A stretch of DNA of 48,440 bases from Enorma phocaeensis (GTDB lineage: Bacteria; Actinomycetota; Coriobacteriia; Coriobacteriales; Coriobacteriaceae), in NCBI RefSeq assembly GCF_016901575.1, contig NZ_JACJKQ010000017.1, positions 1 to 48,440 on the forward strand. The letters run 5' to 3'. Positions 13,914 to 20,128 of the stretch are shown in pieces. Both the position numbers and the translations under genes were made by a program. Every line of letters begins with the position of its first letter. Position 1 is the stretch's first letter. The notes beneath the pieces are model-generated. The model did not search any database and was not told the origin of the DNA. It worked only from the letters and a program-made list of their open reading frames with translations.

Positions 13914-15299
13914 ATGACCGAACTCAGCAACGCACCACACCGTCGCAACAGCTCACTCCCACGCACAGGCAGCCGCATTGCGGCAGCCGCCTTTGTCGCC
14001 ATGCTCGTTGCCGGCTCCCCGGCCTCCGCATGGGCACAAATCCAACGTGCCGACCTCGTCTGCGGAGAAGCGGCATCAGACCGTGGCATCCAGGATGCCG
14101 ACCTCCCCAACATCAGCGCCCCCAGCGCGCTGGTCGCCACCGATGACGGCCAGGTCCTCTACGCCCGGAGCGCCAGCGAGCAGCGCGAGATCGCCTCGAT
14201 CACCAAGATCATGACCGCCATCGTGGCGCTTGAGAATGCGCCGCTCGACACCGTCGTCACGGTCGATGAGGCCGCGGCGACGGTCGGCGAGTCCTCCGCG
14301 GGACTCCGCGAGGGGGAGACCCTCACGCTTGAAGATGCCTTGCGCGGCCTGATGGTCCCGTCGGGCAACGACGCCGCCATGGCCATCGCCTCCACGCTCG
14401 GCCCGCTTCTCGATCCGTCGACGGCGGATCCACTCGCCACGTTCGTGGACGCCATGAACGCCAAGGCCGCCGAGCTCGGCATGGCAGACACGCTCTTCAC
14501 CAATCCCCACGGCCTCGACTTCGACGACTGGGAGGGCGACCTGCACTCAACCGCCTCGGACGTCGCGCTCATGGTCGCCTACGCCATGCGCAACGACACG
14601 TTCCGCTCAATCGTGGGGTCCGGAGCCACGAGCATCCAGGTGACCTCGGCGGACGGGACTCCCCGCACGGTCGAGCTTCGTGAAGCGAACCTGCTGCTAG
14701 GCGTCGAAGGCAACATAGGCGTGAAGACGGGAACCACCGAAGACGCGGGCGCCTGCTTCGCGGGGGCCTTCGACCGCGATGGAAACGAGATCTATACCGT
14801 GGTTCTTGGAGACCCCATGACCTCGGGGGCCGAGTCGTGGGCCGACGACACGCGATTCGTCGACACCATGACCCTGGCGGACTGGTACTACGATCACACG
14901 GAAAACGTGCCGGCCGTCACATCCAGCAGAACCACCTTGGCCGGCGAGCAGCTTGTCGCACGCGCCACCCACACCGACTGGTCTGACAAGTCGGTCGATG
15001 TAATTGCCGCCGACCCCGCCGCCACCGCTTCGCTGTTCACCTTGGGCGACGAAGCCCAGATGACATGCGATCTGGCATCCTTTTCGGGAGATGTCCATGT
15101 CGGAGATCCTGCCGGCACCCTGACCATCACCCAAGACGGGCAGTCCGTCGCCGAAGTTGAGCTCGTCTCCGCCGAGGACGTGGCGGCGCCCAACCCCGTG
15201 GAATGGGTGCTGGTCCAACTCGATCGGCTGGTGCGCACCCTCACCGGCGAGCCTACCGCCGCGCCTGAAGAGGTCTTCGCAACCGCACCCGAGGTGTAG
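13914..15299 (+). CDS. dacA: Serine-type D-Ala-D-Ala carboxypeptidase (DacA/PBP5 family)
   Basis: Penicillin-binding protein of 461 residues that trims the terminal D-Ala from peptidoglycan stem peptides outside the cell. An N-terminal signal peptide (hydrophobic stretch about 22-38, cut near ASA-WAQ) is followed by the catalytic S95-I-T-K98 (family S11), S150-G-N and K271-T-G motifs, in the standard order and spacing. A C-terminal domain of about 110 residues lacks an obvious membrane helix at the very end. It is transcribed away from the VanR-like regulator. VanR/VanS-type systems often govern wall-modifying carboxypeptidases, though VanY is a metalloenzyme, so this is a functional analogy only. 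Confidence 0.9.
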   Translation: MTELSNAPHRRNSSLPRTGSRIAAAAFVAMLVAGSPASAWAQIQRADLVCGEAASDRGIQDADLPNISAPSALVATDDGQVLYARSASEQREIASITKIMTAIVALENAPLDTVVTVDEAAATVGESSAGLREGETLTLEDALRGLMVPSGNDAAMAIASTLGPLLDPSTADPLATFVDAMNAKAAELGMADTLFTNPHGLDFDDWEGDLHSTASDVALMVAYAMRNDTFRSIVGSGATSIQVTSADGTPRTVELREANLLLGVEGNIGVKTGTTEDAGACFAGAFDRDGNEIYTVVLGDPMTSGAESWADDTRFVDTMTLADWYYDHTENVPAVTSSRTTLAGEQLVARATHTDWSDKSVDVIAADPAATASLFTLGDEAQMTCDLASFSGDVHVGDPAGTLTITQDGQSVAEVELVSAEDVAAPNPVEWVLVQLDRLVRTLTGEPTAAPEEVFATAPEV

Positions 15300-15433: not shown

Positions 15434-15528
15434 TATGCAAAACGGACGCTTTCACAAACTTGTATAGCAAAATGGACGCTAACAGCCAAAAATCCAAGGC
15501 TTAGCGTCCATTCTGCATCACAAGTTGA
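15434..15528. repeat. Three-copy repeat cluster, unit TATRGCAAAAYGGACGCT
   Basis: Copy 1 (TATGCAAAACGGACGCT, 15434-15450) and copy 2 (TATAGCAAAATGGACGCT, 15463-15480) are direct repeats. Copy 3 is inverted at about 15501-15528. AATGGACGCTAA (15471-15482) pairs perfectly with TTAGCGTCCATT (15501-15512), and the similarity extends outward through ACTTGT/ACAAGT, giving imperfect arms of about 30 nt. It resembles a small palindromic intergenic element. The rest of 15300-15675 has only a GAGCCG-CGA-CGGCTC hairpin just after dacA and a twice-repeated CCCATCGGCAG. Confidence 0.6.
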
Positions 15529-15675: not shown

Positions 15676-16617
15676 TCAGCCGAGCTCTGCCTCACGTTCA
15701 AAGAGCTCCGCCACGGCACCTCCCGCCTCGTCCGGGGCGATGCAACGCACACCGACGCCGGAAGGGGCGCCGTTGCGGCCGTGATAGTCGCTGCCTCCGG
15801 TCATGAAAAGACCGTACTCACTTGCCAGCCCGCGCGAGCGCTCCTCGTCGTCGGGGCCGTGGTCTGGGTGATACACCTCGATGCCCAAAAGGCCCGCATC
15901 GACCAACTCTGGCACCAATGACCATGAATCCATCTGGGCGGGGTGCGCCAGCACGGGAACGCCGCCCTGCTCACGAATGGCTCGCACGGCGTCTGTCGCC
16001 TCGGGATATCCGATGTCGCGCACTGCAATGCCCGACCCTTTGAAGATGCTGCGATAGATGCGCTGATACGAGGGGTCGGTATAGGGAAGATGGGTGAGGG
16101 CCTCCATGATGTGCTGCTTATAGGGAGCGGTCCCGTCTGAGCAGACGCGCTCAAGGGCATCGAGCGAGAAGGACGGGTCGCACAGCTCGGCGTCGGCCAC
16201 GCAGGCCAAGGCGAGCGCCTCGCGCGGGTCCTCGCCGCCGCGCAGCGTCCTCACAATGGTCCACGCCTGCCAAAGCGTGTTCGCTGCCCGGGCGTTGAGG
16301 GTGGGCGCGACCAGGCGCTCAAGCGGGCCGGACCCATCTCGGGTCGCCTCAAGCCCGAAGCCCAGGATATGCACCTTTCGCCCCGTGGCAGAACATGCCG
16401 CCGACACCTCGACGCCAGCCAGCACGGGAAACCCTGCCGCGCGCGCTTGGGAGCGCACGGCGGAGAGCTGCGTCAGGCTGTCGTGGTCTGTCACCGCCAT
16501 GCCGGCGAGCCCCACGGCGCGGGCCCGGTCGATCAGCTCCCCCACCGAGCAGGAGCCGTCAGAAAAAACCGAATGGTTGTGCAGGTCATACGAACCGGCA
16601 GCCTCGTGTCCACACAT
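15676..16617 (-). CDS. PHP-domain phosphoesterase (possible cyclic ribose phosphate dihydrolase)
   Basis: A 313-residue PHP-superfamily metal hydrolase. Metal ligands appear as H13-N-H15 in DLHNHSVFSDG, TDHDSL at 43-48, Glu70 in AGVEVSA, VLAHPAQ near residue 220 and GGSDYHG near residue 280. The start is ATG 16617, with AGGAGGG upstream. By motif alone it could be a TrpH/YciV-like 3',5'-nucleotide phosphatase. Its position 38 nt after a phnO-like gene, in the tail of a phn cluster, suggests the PHP enzyme described from Eggerthella lenta, which replaces PhnP and opens ribose 1,2-cyclic phosphate 5-phosphate. I infer this from context; substrate specificity is unproven. Confidence 0.75.
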   Translation of the reverse strand: MCGHEAAGSYDLHNHSVFSDGSCSVGELIDRARAVGLAGMAVTDHDSLTQLSAVRSQARAAGFPVLAGVEVSAACSATGRKVHILGFGLEATRDGSGPLERLVAPTLNARAANTLWQAWTIVRTLRGGEDPREALALACVADAELCDPSFSLDALERVCSDGTAPYKQHIMEALTHLPYTDPSYQRIYRSIFKGSGIAVRDIGYPEATDAVRAIREQGGVPVLAHPAQMDSWSLVPELVDAGLLGIEVYHPDHGPDDEERSRGLASEYGLFMTGGSDYHGRNGAPSGVGVRCIAPDEAGGAVAELFEREAELG

Positions 16618-16655
16618 CGAAGATCCCTCCTGTCTTTCGATGAATCCGACCGGTA

Positions 16656-17138
16656 CTAGAGCGGCATCGTTAAGTGGAGGTGGGTCCTGGCCATCCCCTC
16701 TCGCTCGTAGAAGCGATGGGCGTCCGTACGAGCGAGATTCGAGGTGACCTCGATGAGCTCGCAGCCCGCCTCGCAGGCGATCTCGCGGGCACGTCGAAGC
16801 AGCCGTGCTCCGATTCGCCGACCGCGTGCCTTGCCACCGACCACGCATTCGAGCACCTCGGCGACGGGGCGCTCGTGATGCAGCCTTGAGGAGATCTGCA
16901 GATTGAGCATGCCTTCGACCTCGTCTTCATGCTCGAAGACGAGGCATGTATGGCTCGCGTCGGCGAGCTGGCTCTCGAAGCGTCGGCAGAATGAGTCGTA
17001 GTCGAACTCAGTGCGCTCGAGATCGCAGATGAGCCGATGGAGCGCACGAGCATCGGAAGCCGTCGCCACGCGAATCGTCCCCTCCTCCACAGGAGGACGA
17101 TGCCCCGCGAAGGCGCCGTCCGCATCACTTCTCACCAT
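16656..17138 (-). CDS. phnO: PhnO-like aminoalkylphosphonate N-acetyltransferase
   Basis: A 160-residue GNAT protein. The match to enterobacterial PhnO, as I know it, runs through the whole domain: ALHRLICDLERTEFDYDSF near residue 32 (ALICEL..EFD in PhnO), SSRLHHERPVAEVLECVV near residue 83 (LHH...EI.ELVV), acetyl-CoA loop ARGRRIGARLL near residue 104, and the end HRFYEREGMARTHLHLTMPL. PhnO acetylates aminoalkylphosphonates before or around C-P lyase action. It begins 12 nt after the phnL remnant and is followed by the PHP gene on the same strand. It looks intact, with no frameshift, although its partner genes are broken. Confidence 0.8.
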   Translation of the reverse strand: MVRSDADGAFAGHRPPVEEGTIRVATASDARALHRLICDLERTEFDYDSFCRRFESQLADASHTCLVFEHEDEVEGMLNLQISSRLHHERPVAEVLECVVGGKARGRRIGARLLRRAREIACEAGCELIEVTSNLARTDAHRFYEREGMARTHLHLTMPL

Positions 17139-17150
17139 GAACCACCCGCT

Positions 17151-17516
17151 TCACTCGGTCACGAAACCCCCTGCCTGCATATTGTATTCGCGATCGCAGA
17201 CGCCTTCCATGAACTCGAGGTCGTGGAAGATGCCGAGCATCGTGGTTCCCCCGGCCTTGAGCTGCTCGATCAGGTCGCGCACGCGCACCTTGCTCGCGTT
17301 GTCGAGGCTCGCCGTGGGTTCGTCGAGCAGCAGCAGGCGCGGTCGGCACACCATGGCGCGGGCGATGTTGAGGCGCAGCTTCTCACCGCCCGAAAAGGTG
17401 TTGGGATAGAGGTCCCACAGCTCACGGGGGAACGCGAAATGCTCGAGCATGCGCGTGGTCTCCGCCTCAACGGCCTCGGGGTCGCTGAACGCCTCGGCAG
17501 CGCCGGATACCACATG
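17151..17516 (-). pseudogene. phnL: Truncated phnL (C-P lyase ABC-type protein)
   Basis: About 120 codons equal to the C-terminal half of PhnL. They include the ABC signature FSGGEKLRLNIARAM, Walker B RLLLLDEPTASLDNAS and the H-loop LGIFHDLEF, ending at a TGA. The N-terminal half, including Walker A, is absent. The sequence immediately upstream belongs to phnM in another reading frame, so the break is a deletion junction. A product could only start weakly at a GTG near 17513 and could not bind ATP normally. In intact systems PhnL belongs to the PhnGHIJ-associated core that makes ribose 1-phosphonate triphosphate. Confidence 0.85.
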
Positions 17517-18136
17517 CGCGAAACGACGCGGCCGTCCACGAGCGTCGCCGTGATCACCGGATAGGAGCGCTGTCCCTCTTCGACCTCGCGGACAACGAGG
17601 ATGTCTGCCTTCTTGCCCTCTTCCAAGCTCCCCAGGTCGGCGTCGATCTTCACCGCGCGCGCCGGATTGATGGTGAGCATGGCAAACGCCTGCTCAAGCG
17701 GGAGCTTGAAGTCGTGGTGCAGCACAAAGGCGCTTTGCAGCATGGCCGTTGGGTAGTAGTCCGAGCACAGCGCGCGGGCCACGCCCGAGCGCACGGCGTC
17801 ACGGGCGGAGAGGTTTCCCGAATGGCTCTTGCCCAGAAGGATGTTCGGCGTTCCCATGACGGTATACATGCCGCGCTCGCAGGCGGCGGCAGCAACCTCT
17901 TGAGAGATGGGGAACTCTGAAATGGTGCACCCGAGCTCGCGCATGAGGTCGAGCTTCTCGACAGAGTCGTCATCGTGGCTCGCAAGCGCGATTCCCTGCC
18001 TCGAGGCGAGCTCTGCGAGATAGGAGAGCTGCTCGAAGGACAGCTTGGGGGCGTCCTGCTGCGCCCGGGCGATCTGCGCCATCCACCCCGAGGCCACCGA
18101 GCAGGACATGCGCGGCACCATACGGCGCCTGGACAC
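17513..18136 (-). pseudogene. phnM: Truncated phnM (ribose 1-methylphosphonate triphosphate diphosphatase)
   Basis: About 208 codons corresponding to the C-terminal half of PhnM, an amidohydrolase-fold enzyme. Recognisable parts are ASRQGIALASHDDDSVEKL, MGTPNILLGKSHSGNLSARD, CSDYYPTAMLQSAF and LTINPARAVKIDADLGSLEEGKKADILVV. The N-terminal metal-binding HxH part is missing. The frame reaches VDGRVVSRM at 17513-17515, then runs out of register over the phnL fragment. PhnM normally releases pyrophosphate in phosphonate breakdown; this copy cannot. The 5' break lies close to the tatD end (18186). Confidence 0.85.
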
Positions 18137-18185
18137 GCGCTGCCACGAGGCGCTTGACGAACTTGATTGGTAAAGGGCAGACGAG

Positions 18186-19232
18186 CTAGCCGAACAGGCG
18201 GAGGCTGTTCTCCCACGCCGAGCGCGCTATCGCGACGGGATCCTCGCCGGTGCGCTCGGCACGGTCCCGGCAAAGCGCCTCCTGCGTGAGGGCGATCATG
18301 GCGGGCTCGCACTCCAGCCCACGGATGGGCTCGGGCGCCATATAGGGGCAGTCCGTCTCGAAGACAATGCGGTCGAGGGGTGCGGCGGCAAAGGCCTCGC
18401 GAACCTCTTCGTTGCCCTTAAACGTCGCCGCCCCGCCAAAGGCGATGGAGCAGCCCAGCTCGACGAAGCGCTCCATGGTGGCGCGGTCTTCGCCAAAACA
18501 GTGGAGCACGCAGCCCGCCTTGGGCACGCCGACCTCTTGAAGCACCCTGTAGGCGTCCGCATGGGCGGCGCGCGCCTCGTCTGCAGGATCGTTTCTTAGA
18601 TGAAGCTCCACGGGAAGCTCGCGCTCCACGGCAACCGCCAGCTGACGCGCCATGCAGGCCATCTGCACATCATGTGGAGCCGCCTCGATGTCGTCCTCGG
18701 CATCGAAATGGTAGTCGAGGCCGATCTCCCCCACACCGAGGCAGAGCGGGTCTTCGAGCGCCTCGAGCACCTGCCCATGCACCTCATCGGTATAGCGGGG
18801 CGCGCCATAGGGGTGGACGCCCGCGAGATAGCCCACATGGCCGAAGAGCTCGCGCTCACCCCGAGACGGCCCCGGCAGGCCCCCTTCGTCAGAGGGTCGC
18901 AGCGCGTCGTCCGCCGCTGCCAGCCAGCCCTCCAGCAGCGCGTGAAAGTCGGCGGCGGTAGGGGCCGTGCGTGCATCCGCCAGAGGATCCCAGATGCTCA
19001 CCAGCCTCCTCACGCCCGCCCTGGCGGCGCGCGCGAGGGCAAAGACGGGGTCGACGCGCCAGAAGCTCATGAGGTGGGCGTGGGTGTCGGAGATGGGGGC
19101 GAGCGGGGTGGGAAGGTGGACGGCGCGGGCCTTTTTGAGATAGGCGAGCTCAAGATGCCGCTCGAGAGCGGGGTCGCCTCCCGCGGCTTGCTCCACCAAG
19201 GCGACCTGGCCCGATGTTCCCTTCTTGGCCAT
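18186..19232 (-). CDS. TatD-family metal-dependent hydrolase
   Basis: A 348-residue TIM-barrel hydrolase, longer than usual for TatD (about 260). Metal ligands are SDTHAHL near residue 49, the conserved Glu in LGVGEIGLDYHF near residue 168, VELHLRN (His) near residue 207, CVLHCFGED (His) near residue 240 and FETDCPYMAPEP (Asp) near residue 289. An N-terminal extension of about 45 residues and an insert near 100-130 account for the extra length. TatD proteins act as metal-dependent deoxyribonucleases or tRNA-quality enzymes. The ATG at 19232 overlaps the rsmA stop (TGATG). tatD-rsmA-metG clustering is common in Gram-positive bacteria. Confidence 0.9.
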   Translation of the reverse strand: MAKKGTSGQVALVEQAAGGDPALERHLELAYLKKARAVHLPTPLAPISDTHAHLMSFWRVDPVFALARAARAGVRRLVSIWDPLADARTAPTAADFHALLEGWLAAADDALRPSDEGGLPGPSRGERELFGHVGYLAGVHPYGAPRYTDEVHGQVLEALEDPLCLGVGEIGLDYHFDAEDDIEAAPHDVQMACMARQLAVAVERELPVELHLRNDPADEARAAHADAYRVLQEVGVPKAGCVLHCFGEDRATMERFVELGCSIAFGGAATFKGNEEVREAFAAAPLDRIVFETDCPYMAPEPIRGLECEPAMIALTQEALCRDRAERTGEDPVAIARSAWENSLRLFG

Positions 19233-20128
19233 CAAGCATCAACCTCCCTGCCAGCCAGGCTCTCGAGAGCGCGTGCGAGCCGGATAAAGTCTTCAACGGA
19301 GAGCGTCTCGGCGCGCGCGGTCGGAGCGATGCCGGCGGACTCGAAGGCGGCATCGAGCGCCCGCTTATCAAATCCGTTCGCACCCATAGAGTTCCGGATG
19401 GTCTTGCGACGTTGGGCGAAGGCGGCATCGACCACGCGCCCGACCGCGCGGGGGTCGAGCGATGCCCCCGAAGAACCGTCGCCGCCCTCGGCGGGGCGGC
19501 ATCGGTCGATGCGCACCACGGCAGAGTCCACATGCGGAGCCGGCATGAAGCAGCGCGGCGGCACCTCGAAGCGCCCCGTCACCGTGCCATACAGCGAAAG
19601 CTTCACGGTATAGGCGCCGAATGCCTTCGTGCCCGGACAGGCGGCGATGCGGTCGGCCACCTCCTTTTGCACCATGACCACGGCGCGCCTGAGCGACGGC
19701 ATGGTCTCGAAATACTGAAGGATGATCGTTGCCGCCACGTTATAAGGCAGGTTCGCCACGAAGACCTCGGGCTCGCCGCCCGCAGCACCCGCTATCAAGG
19801 CGGGAGAGACCTTCAACGCGTCGCCCATGATGTAGCGGAAGTTGTCGTGGTCGGCGGCGTGCGCGTCGAGCACCGGCTCGAGCGTCGCGTCCATCTCGAT
19901 CGAGACCACGCGCGCGGCCTCCTGCACCAGCGCCAACGTAAGCGTGCCGATGCCGGGGCCGACCTCGAGCACCCGCTCCGTCCCGTCGAGCTCGGCAAGC
20001 TGGCAGATGTGCTCGATCACATGGTTGTCGATCAAGAAGTTCTGCCCCAGCCGATGCTTCGTGGCAAGGCCGAACTCATCAAGCAGCTCTCGCGTAGCGG
20101 AAAGGTTCGCAAGGGGCGAGGTGGTCAT
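19232..20128 (-). CDS. rsmA: 16S rRNA dimethyladenosine transferase RsmA (KsgA)
   Basis: Dimethylates A1518 and A1519 of 16S rRNA late in 30S assembly, using SAM. The 298-residue protein has LGQNFLIDNHVIEHI near residue 27, SAM motif I VLEVGPGIGTLTLALVQEA near residue 55, motif II VVSIEMDATLEPVL near residue 75 and the catalytic NLPYNVAATII near residue 125. FGAYTVKLSLYG and the FMPAPHVDSAVVRI segment follow, then a helical C-terminal domain. The ATG has AGGAG upstream. It is coupled to tatD by overlap. A 273-nt spacer without a recognisable gene separates it from metG. Confidence 0.95.
   Translation of the reverse strand: MTTSPLANLSATRELLDEFGLATKHRLGQNFLIDNHVIEHICQLAELDGTERVLEVGPGIGTLTLALVQEAARVVSIEMDATLEPVLDAHAADHDNFRYIMGDALKVSPALIAGAAGGEPEVFVANLPYNVAATIILQYFETMPSLRRAVVMVQKEVADRIAACPGTKAFGAYTVKLSLYGTVTGRFEVPPRCFMPAPHVDSAVVRIDRCRPAEGGDGSSGASLDPRAVGRVVDAAFAQRRKTIRNSMGANGFDKRALDAAFESAGIAPTARAETLSVEDFIRLARALESLAGREVDA

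Follow-up and report, generated by a model that had tools for sequence, protein, structure and literature searches.

Is a short run of phn genes in the gut bacterium Enorma phocaeensis what is left of a C–P lyase operon and, if so, have the genes that stayed intact taken up a new role? Phosphonates are compounds with a carbon–phosphorus bond. The window, that is the whole stretch of DNA analysed (48,440 nucleotides of contig NZ_JACJKQ010000017.1, assembly GCF_016901575.1), carries on its minus strand, in the interval between tatD and a dacA-like gene, a partial phnM and a partial phnL, along with phnO and PHP genes that are both intact (table 1). An earlier note, made from the letters of the sequence, had read this run as an operon cut down by deletion, whose accessory genes might have a new role or might be in early decay. 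We conclude that the window is very probably the recent deletion scar of a complete C–P lyase operon that formerly lay between tatD and dacA.

Table 1. Features of the tatD–dacA interval and its flanks, in window coordinates.
Feature	Position	Strand	Remarks
dacA-like D-Ala-D-Ala carboxypeptidase	13914..15299	+	downstream flank; named from sequence, conserved by BLAST in relatives
PHP phosphoesterase, intact, 313 aa	15676..16617	-	PhnPP-like; orthologous to the PHP with which phn operons of Coriobacteriia end on the 3' side
phnO-like aminoalkylphosphonate N-acetyltransferase (GNAT), intact, at most 160 aa	16656..17138	-	homology from residue 21 on
phnL C-terminal half	17160..17506	-	Walker A gone; signature and Walker B retained
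Junction 2, phnM 3' end / mid-phnL	17493..17506	-	overlap with imperfect 11-base microhomology GCGC(T/C)GCCGAG
phnM internal-to-C-terminal fragment	17493..18073	-	begins at about residue 209; final residues missing too
Junction 1, decarboxylase C-terminus / mid-phnM	18062..18075	none	about 12 kb absent relative to G028 (C. tanakaei An791)
PLP-dependent decarboxylase C-terminal stump	18073..18173	+	in C. tanakaei relatives, gene between tatD and the phn operon
tatD	18186..19235	-	upstream flank of the operon site

How much of phnM and phnL survives? In HMM scans the minus-strand ORF 17270–18136 matched two PhnM models, NF011990 (232 bits, model positions 201–387 of 390) and TIGR02318 (206.6 bits, positions 196–375 of 376). 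The homology runs from about 18073 to 17493, and the N-terminal half, which in a full-length PhnM holds the metal-binding part, is missing. The stump ends in ...VVSRMWYPALP, its last residues gone, and the remainder of the ORF is phnL read out of frame. The minus-strand ORF 17151–17513 matched PhnL (TIGR02324, 110 bits, positions 121–223 of 224); it keeps the signature motif FSGGEKLRLN and the Walker B sequence LLLLDEP, and the half that would carry Walker A is absent. At 82–88%, the DNA identity of the stumps to the phnM (about 570 bases) and phnL (about 345 bases) of relatives excludes chance from both assignments. The earlier note had described phnM and phnL fragments without N-terminal parts, followed on the same strand by an intact PhnO-like gene and an intact PHP hydrolase. 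The scans saw the same arrangement, with PhnM covered from about 196 to 387. The earlier note's count of truncated genes was right for these two and overlooked a third: between junction 1 and tatD the plus strand reads AIHPEATEQDMRGTIRRLDTRCHEALDELDW-stop, the C-terminus of a PLP decarboxylase. This stump is 62–65% identical to the intact gene of C. tanakaei An791 (G028) and An368 (G048), which lies there beside the phn locus, convergent to tatD. In both strains an insertion made up of the decarboxylase and a divergent LysR regulator separates tatD from the phn operon (G048 L109:5655–8560; G028 L024:16723–19210), and the decarboxylase weakly resembles diaminobutyrate/aspartate decarboxylases.

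How were these pieces brought together? Two deletions account for them. The first removed most of the decarboxylase gene through to the first half of phnM, a loss of about 12 kb if C. tanakaei An791 is taken as the stand-in for the ancestor. In the second, the phnM end was fused to mid-phnL across the imperfect 11-base microhomology. The phnM and phnL alignments overlap there by at most 14 bases, and both parental sequences contain GCGC(T/C)GCCGAG, a shared motif that marks junction 2 as a microhomology deletion. Relative to G056, G052, G045, G028 and G022 the loss is about 443–484 nt (about 0.45 kb), a size that, like that at junction 1, is measured against relatives standing in for the ancestor.

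Does the rest of the C–P lyase lie elsewhere in the genome, as the earlier note had proposed to check? Model searches found no match to PhnI in this genome, which is 99.76% complete and 0.03% contaminated, and none to PhnJ either here or in two other genomes of the genus (G001 and G002). For the remaining phn core, the intact 10.8 kb operon of a relative (G056) served as DNA query against the genome; its gene-level matches were the phnM and phnL stumps only, at 82% identity each, and the other matches were a 93-base phnO stretch at the same locus and short ABC-type matches. Thus neither the radical-SAM C–P lyase PhnJ nor its partners PhnGHIK were found in this genome. With PhnI and PhnJ absent and PhnM and PhnL truncated, the C–P lyase cannot work. 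Might the strain nevertheless have a complete operon, the truncations being an artefact of assembly or contamination? The assembly is a short-read draft of 108 contigs. However, the genome lacking PhnI and PhnJ is nearly complete and nearly free of contamination, and both junctions lie deep inside one 48 kb contig. A second genome, that of C. tanakaei An368, bears an independent scar. The two other genomes of the genus also lack PhnJ, and one of them (G001) reads tatD–PHP–dacA with no phn genes and no phnO beside PHP. We regard an artefact as most improbable.

What does the same site look like where the operon is complete? Among 67 genomes assigned to the Coriobacteriaceae by record titles, PhnJ occurs in nine, and a C–P lyase operon is present in all nine. 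Its order is phnC, phnE, phnE, phnG, phnH, phnI, phnJ, phnK, phnM, phnL, then phnO and/or PHP, with the binding-protein gene phnD preceding phnC. In most of these genomes the operon stands between metG–ksgA–tatD and the dacA-like gene; where flanks are readable, it lies between tatD and dacA or adjoins one of them, G022 and G051 having neither gene within the stretch examined (19.5 kb for G022). The window has the flanks of the intact operons: it is their site, from which the greater part of the operon has been deleted. The operons of C. tanakaei An791, Candidatus Collinsella stercoripullorum (G045) and C. aerofaciens MCC370 (G011) occupy this site where flanks are readable, and the first two share the order phnM–phnL–phnO–PHP with the window. 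By comparison, the window has lost everything upstream of mid-phnM, its phnL is truncated and the core complex is absent. The alignment with complete operons, which located both junctions, and the lack of PhnI and PhnJ bear out the claim that an operon was cut down by deletion. Deletion of a catabolic operon is ordinary gene loss. Two further observations concern the operons themselves. One genome (G022, L027) has a complete phn core and no PHP gene, its phnO being truncated in the match. PhnJ is 91% identical between families (G045 and G113) and 85% within one genus (G045 and G011); these core-protein identities suggest that the operon has been transferred horizontally among gut Coriobacteriales.

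If the operon was lost here, how long ago did this happen? Among columns that are otherwise invariant, the phnM stump (191 codons) has a single private amino-acid change, where intact relatives have 0–10. Dividing the changes at codon positions 1+2 by those at position 3 gives 0.046 on its branch, against 0.013–0.070 for intact genes; in a dead gene this ratio would drift toward about one. The phnL stump has two private changes at otherwise invariant columns, one of them at the junction. The lack of any excess of amino-acid change in the stumps dates the deletion as recent on the scale of species divergence. The intactness of phnO and PHP is thus no proof of a new role, since the stumps are equally unmutated and too little time has passed for selection to become visible. 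The scar in this strain, the only one representing the species, is too young to distinguish retention from early decay. Of the two fates that the earlier note had offered, a new role for phnO and PHP is unsupported at the locus, and early decay fits the window better.

Is this scar the only one of its kind? C. tanakaei An368 (L109/L032) carries an independent deletion at the same tatD–dacA site, in which phnL starts near residue 95 and is followed by phnO and by a PHP gene with an in-frame TAG near codon 60. Here too a truncated phnL, phnO and PHP were left between tatD and dacA; the differences from the window are that neither the decarboxylase nor the LysR gene is damaged, that phnL is broken at about residue 95 and that PHP contains a stop. 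The in-frame TAG shows that such scars do decay. A genome of family f2, on the Eggerthellaceae side (G221, L153), has phnC and phnE pieces, an N-terminally truncated PHP and no PhnJ, and is possibly a third phn remnant.

What kind of protein is the surviving PhnO? Its best NCBIfam match is aminoalkylphosphonate N-acetyltransferase NF007530, at 112.2 bits short of the cut-off of 142; five PhnO orthologs that stand beside phn genes score lower still (74–107). Identity to relatives is 45–55%. Two near-invariant sites are changed, R81Q and Gly108 of motif A to Arg, so that the GNAT motif R-x-x-G-x-G reads R-G-R-R-I-G, with Arg in place of its first Gly. Taken as an inactivating change, Gly108 to Arg is not decisive: three solitary PhnOs of sister species carry Arg there. 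In E. coli, PhnO detoxifies (S)-1-aminoethylphosphonate, and a detoxifying role has been proposed for the PhnO that Salmonella enterica retains in the absence of C–P lyase (PMC3463581). The PhnO of the window likewise stands without a C–P lyase; it differs from the PhnOs of NF007530, that of Salmonella included, in its score below the cut-off and in the Gly-to-Arg change in the acetyl-CoA motif. It may still acetylate aminophosphonates, which would amount to detoxification.

Do phnO and PHP of this strain, then, already serve a new role, for which selection maintains the two genes as one unit? Both are open frames, the An368 scar retains the phnO–PHP end as well, other lineages keep PHP under selection without C–P lyase (see below), and the Salmonella PhnO offers a precedent. 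But the equally preserved stumps let recency explain the intactness, the PHP of the second scar has its in-frame TAG, and the sister genome G001 has PHP with no adjoining phnO. The substitutions R81Q and Gly108 to Arg also count against recruitment, although the Arg is shared with the three solitary PhnOs. We judge recruitment of the pair to be quite unlikely, and hold to the reading of a recent scar.

What is the PHP protein? It most likely starts with the ATG at 16617 and not at 16848: the frame from 16848 would run into phnO, and in alignments with relatives the match begins at residue 1 of the 313-residue form. The best NCBIfam match is NF041661 (PhnPP, phosphoribosyl 1,2-cyclic phosphate diesterase), at 229.6 bits against a curated cut-off of 500. 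The operon-linked family (f1) orthologs tested score 220–245 and an operon-linked ortholog of f2 scores 431, so that all tested orthologs also fall below 500. Judged by orthology, the protein is the local form of PhnPP, outside the curated cut-off. Its metal-ligand set (HxH, D, H, E, H, H, DxH) is present as H13, H15, D20, H45, E70, H83, H225, D277 and H279, and is invariant across the family, solitary PHPs included, except for E70 to Asp in G133. The AlphaFold model (pLDDT 96) comes closest, among solved structures, to RNase AM, to BAD_1165 and to a PHP enzyme from Chromobacterium that contains Mn, AMP and phosphate. Elen0235 of Eggerthella lenta is described as an enzyme that cleaves a cyclic phosphodiester at both of its ester bonds (PMC11656708). 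With this PhnPP-type cyclic phosphodiesterase the PHP of the window shares its metal ligands, and it is orthologous to the operon-linked PHPs; unlike PhnPP, it has no C–P lyase to supply the known substrate, and PhnPP activity is here a prediction. The genome contains six PF02811 (PHP) matches, this one included; on reading their sequences, the others resemble DnaE, a histidinol-phosphatase-like protein and a further metallohydrolase.

Does PHP persist without C–P lyase in other lineages? PHP occurs in 19 of the 67 family genomes and stands without PhnJ in 11 of these; elsewhere in the order it does so in 6 of 37, giving 17 Coriobacteriia genomes in all. No PhnJ-less genome has phnM, except for the stump in the window. 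In the PHP tree the PhnJ-less proteins require at least 5–6 separate state changes, and a single clade of the family's 11 is rejected (AU p 5e-64). The earlier note had proposed comparing dN/dS of the phnO and PHP genes across strains. Codon models gave an omega of 0.053 for the solitary PHP of Enorma group g6 (five genomes) and 0.024 for that of an Eggerthellaceae-side genus, g53 (three genomes), hence 0.02–0.05 where PHP has long been alone, against 0.083 for operon-linked PHP both in the family and in f2. The constraint on long-solitary PHP is no weaker than that on operon-linked PHP. The occurrence of solitary PHP on several branches, with strong purifying selection where it has long been alone, is good evidence that the protein has a C–P-lyase-independent use in those lineages. 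For PHP only, retention after loss of the operon is thus borne out by other genomes, not by the window. A candidate sign of recruitment, the Lys-rich N-terminal extension of solitary PHPs, was rejected: the operon-linked PHPs of G052 and G054 carry one too. Such Lys/Arg-rich extensions, about 40–200 residues long, are seen in Enorma-group PHPs and in those of genus g4, with and without C–P lyase (L104:9508–9948, L105, L107, L108, L110, L111, L025, L026). A NUDIX neighbour of the solitary PHP in g53 was likewise set aside, its match being weak, below the Pfam cut-off and absent from NCBIfam.

Could PHP instead be an old resident of the tatD–dacA site and the C–P lyase core the mobile part, solitary PHP being the default and not a remnant? 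The PHPs of the operon-bearing G052 and G054 are nested among PhnJ-less ones, and, in the identities given above, G045 is closer to G113 of another family than to G011 of its own genus. The core and PHP trees also disagree: the core tree (phnI, J, K, M, L) unites G056 with G052 and G054 (100/99), and the PHP tree does not, a conflict that is not significant among operon-linked rows alone (AU p 0.08). On the other side, the phn operons of families f2 and f5 have PHP at their 3' end, and linkage to the operon is thus the probable ancestral condition; the core tree follows genus membership; and the phnM and phnL stumps prove that in the window the core was present and then lost. We think it unlikely that PHP is the resident. 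In view of the tree conflict, at least one recombination event has probably parted the core from PHP. In some PhnJ-less lineages recombination, and not simple loss, may thus account for the present state, and their PHPs may not be strict remnants.

How, if the window is a recent scar, might its two intact genes be used? They now lie directly downstream of metG–ksgA–tatD on the same strand. A promoter and terminator scan between the tatD side and phnO–PHP, covering the sigma-70 consensus only, found nothing above chance; phnO and PHP, if expressed, would be read through from this housekeeping operon. In the gap between dacA and PHP, at 15457–15526, there is an imperfect 26-nt inverted repeat (AACTTGTATAGCAAAATGGACGCTAA / TTAGCGTCCATTCTGCATCACAAGTT), with another partial copy of the AAAACGGACGC core just upstream; it is possibly a repeat element or a regulator site. 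The PHP protein may still hydrolyse small cyclic or mono phosphoesters at its metal centre. PRPP may break down to a 1,2-cyclic ribose phosphate, and our leading guess is that PHP would clean up such a product. More broadly, we put forward tentatively that in Coriobacteriia PHP does a further job outside this pathway and would for that reason have been kept repeatedly after deletion of the operon, beside ksgA–tatD and under selection; 1,2-cyclic ribose phosphate from PRPP, or another small cyclic phosphate, would be examples of its substrate.

Among the genes of the operon it is PHP, and to a lesser extent phnO, that outlives the C–P lyase, on several separate branches. A lone PhnPP or PhnO gene in gut metagenomes therefore calls for caution before phosphonate catabolism is inferred. 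With PHP surviving in this way, one can ask in concrete and testable terms which substrate a PhnPP-type enzyme acts on independently of C–P lyase.
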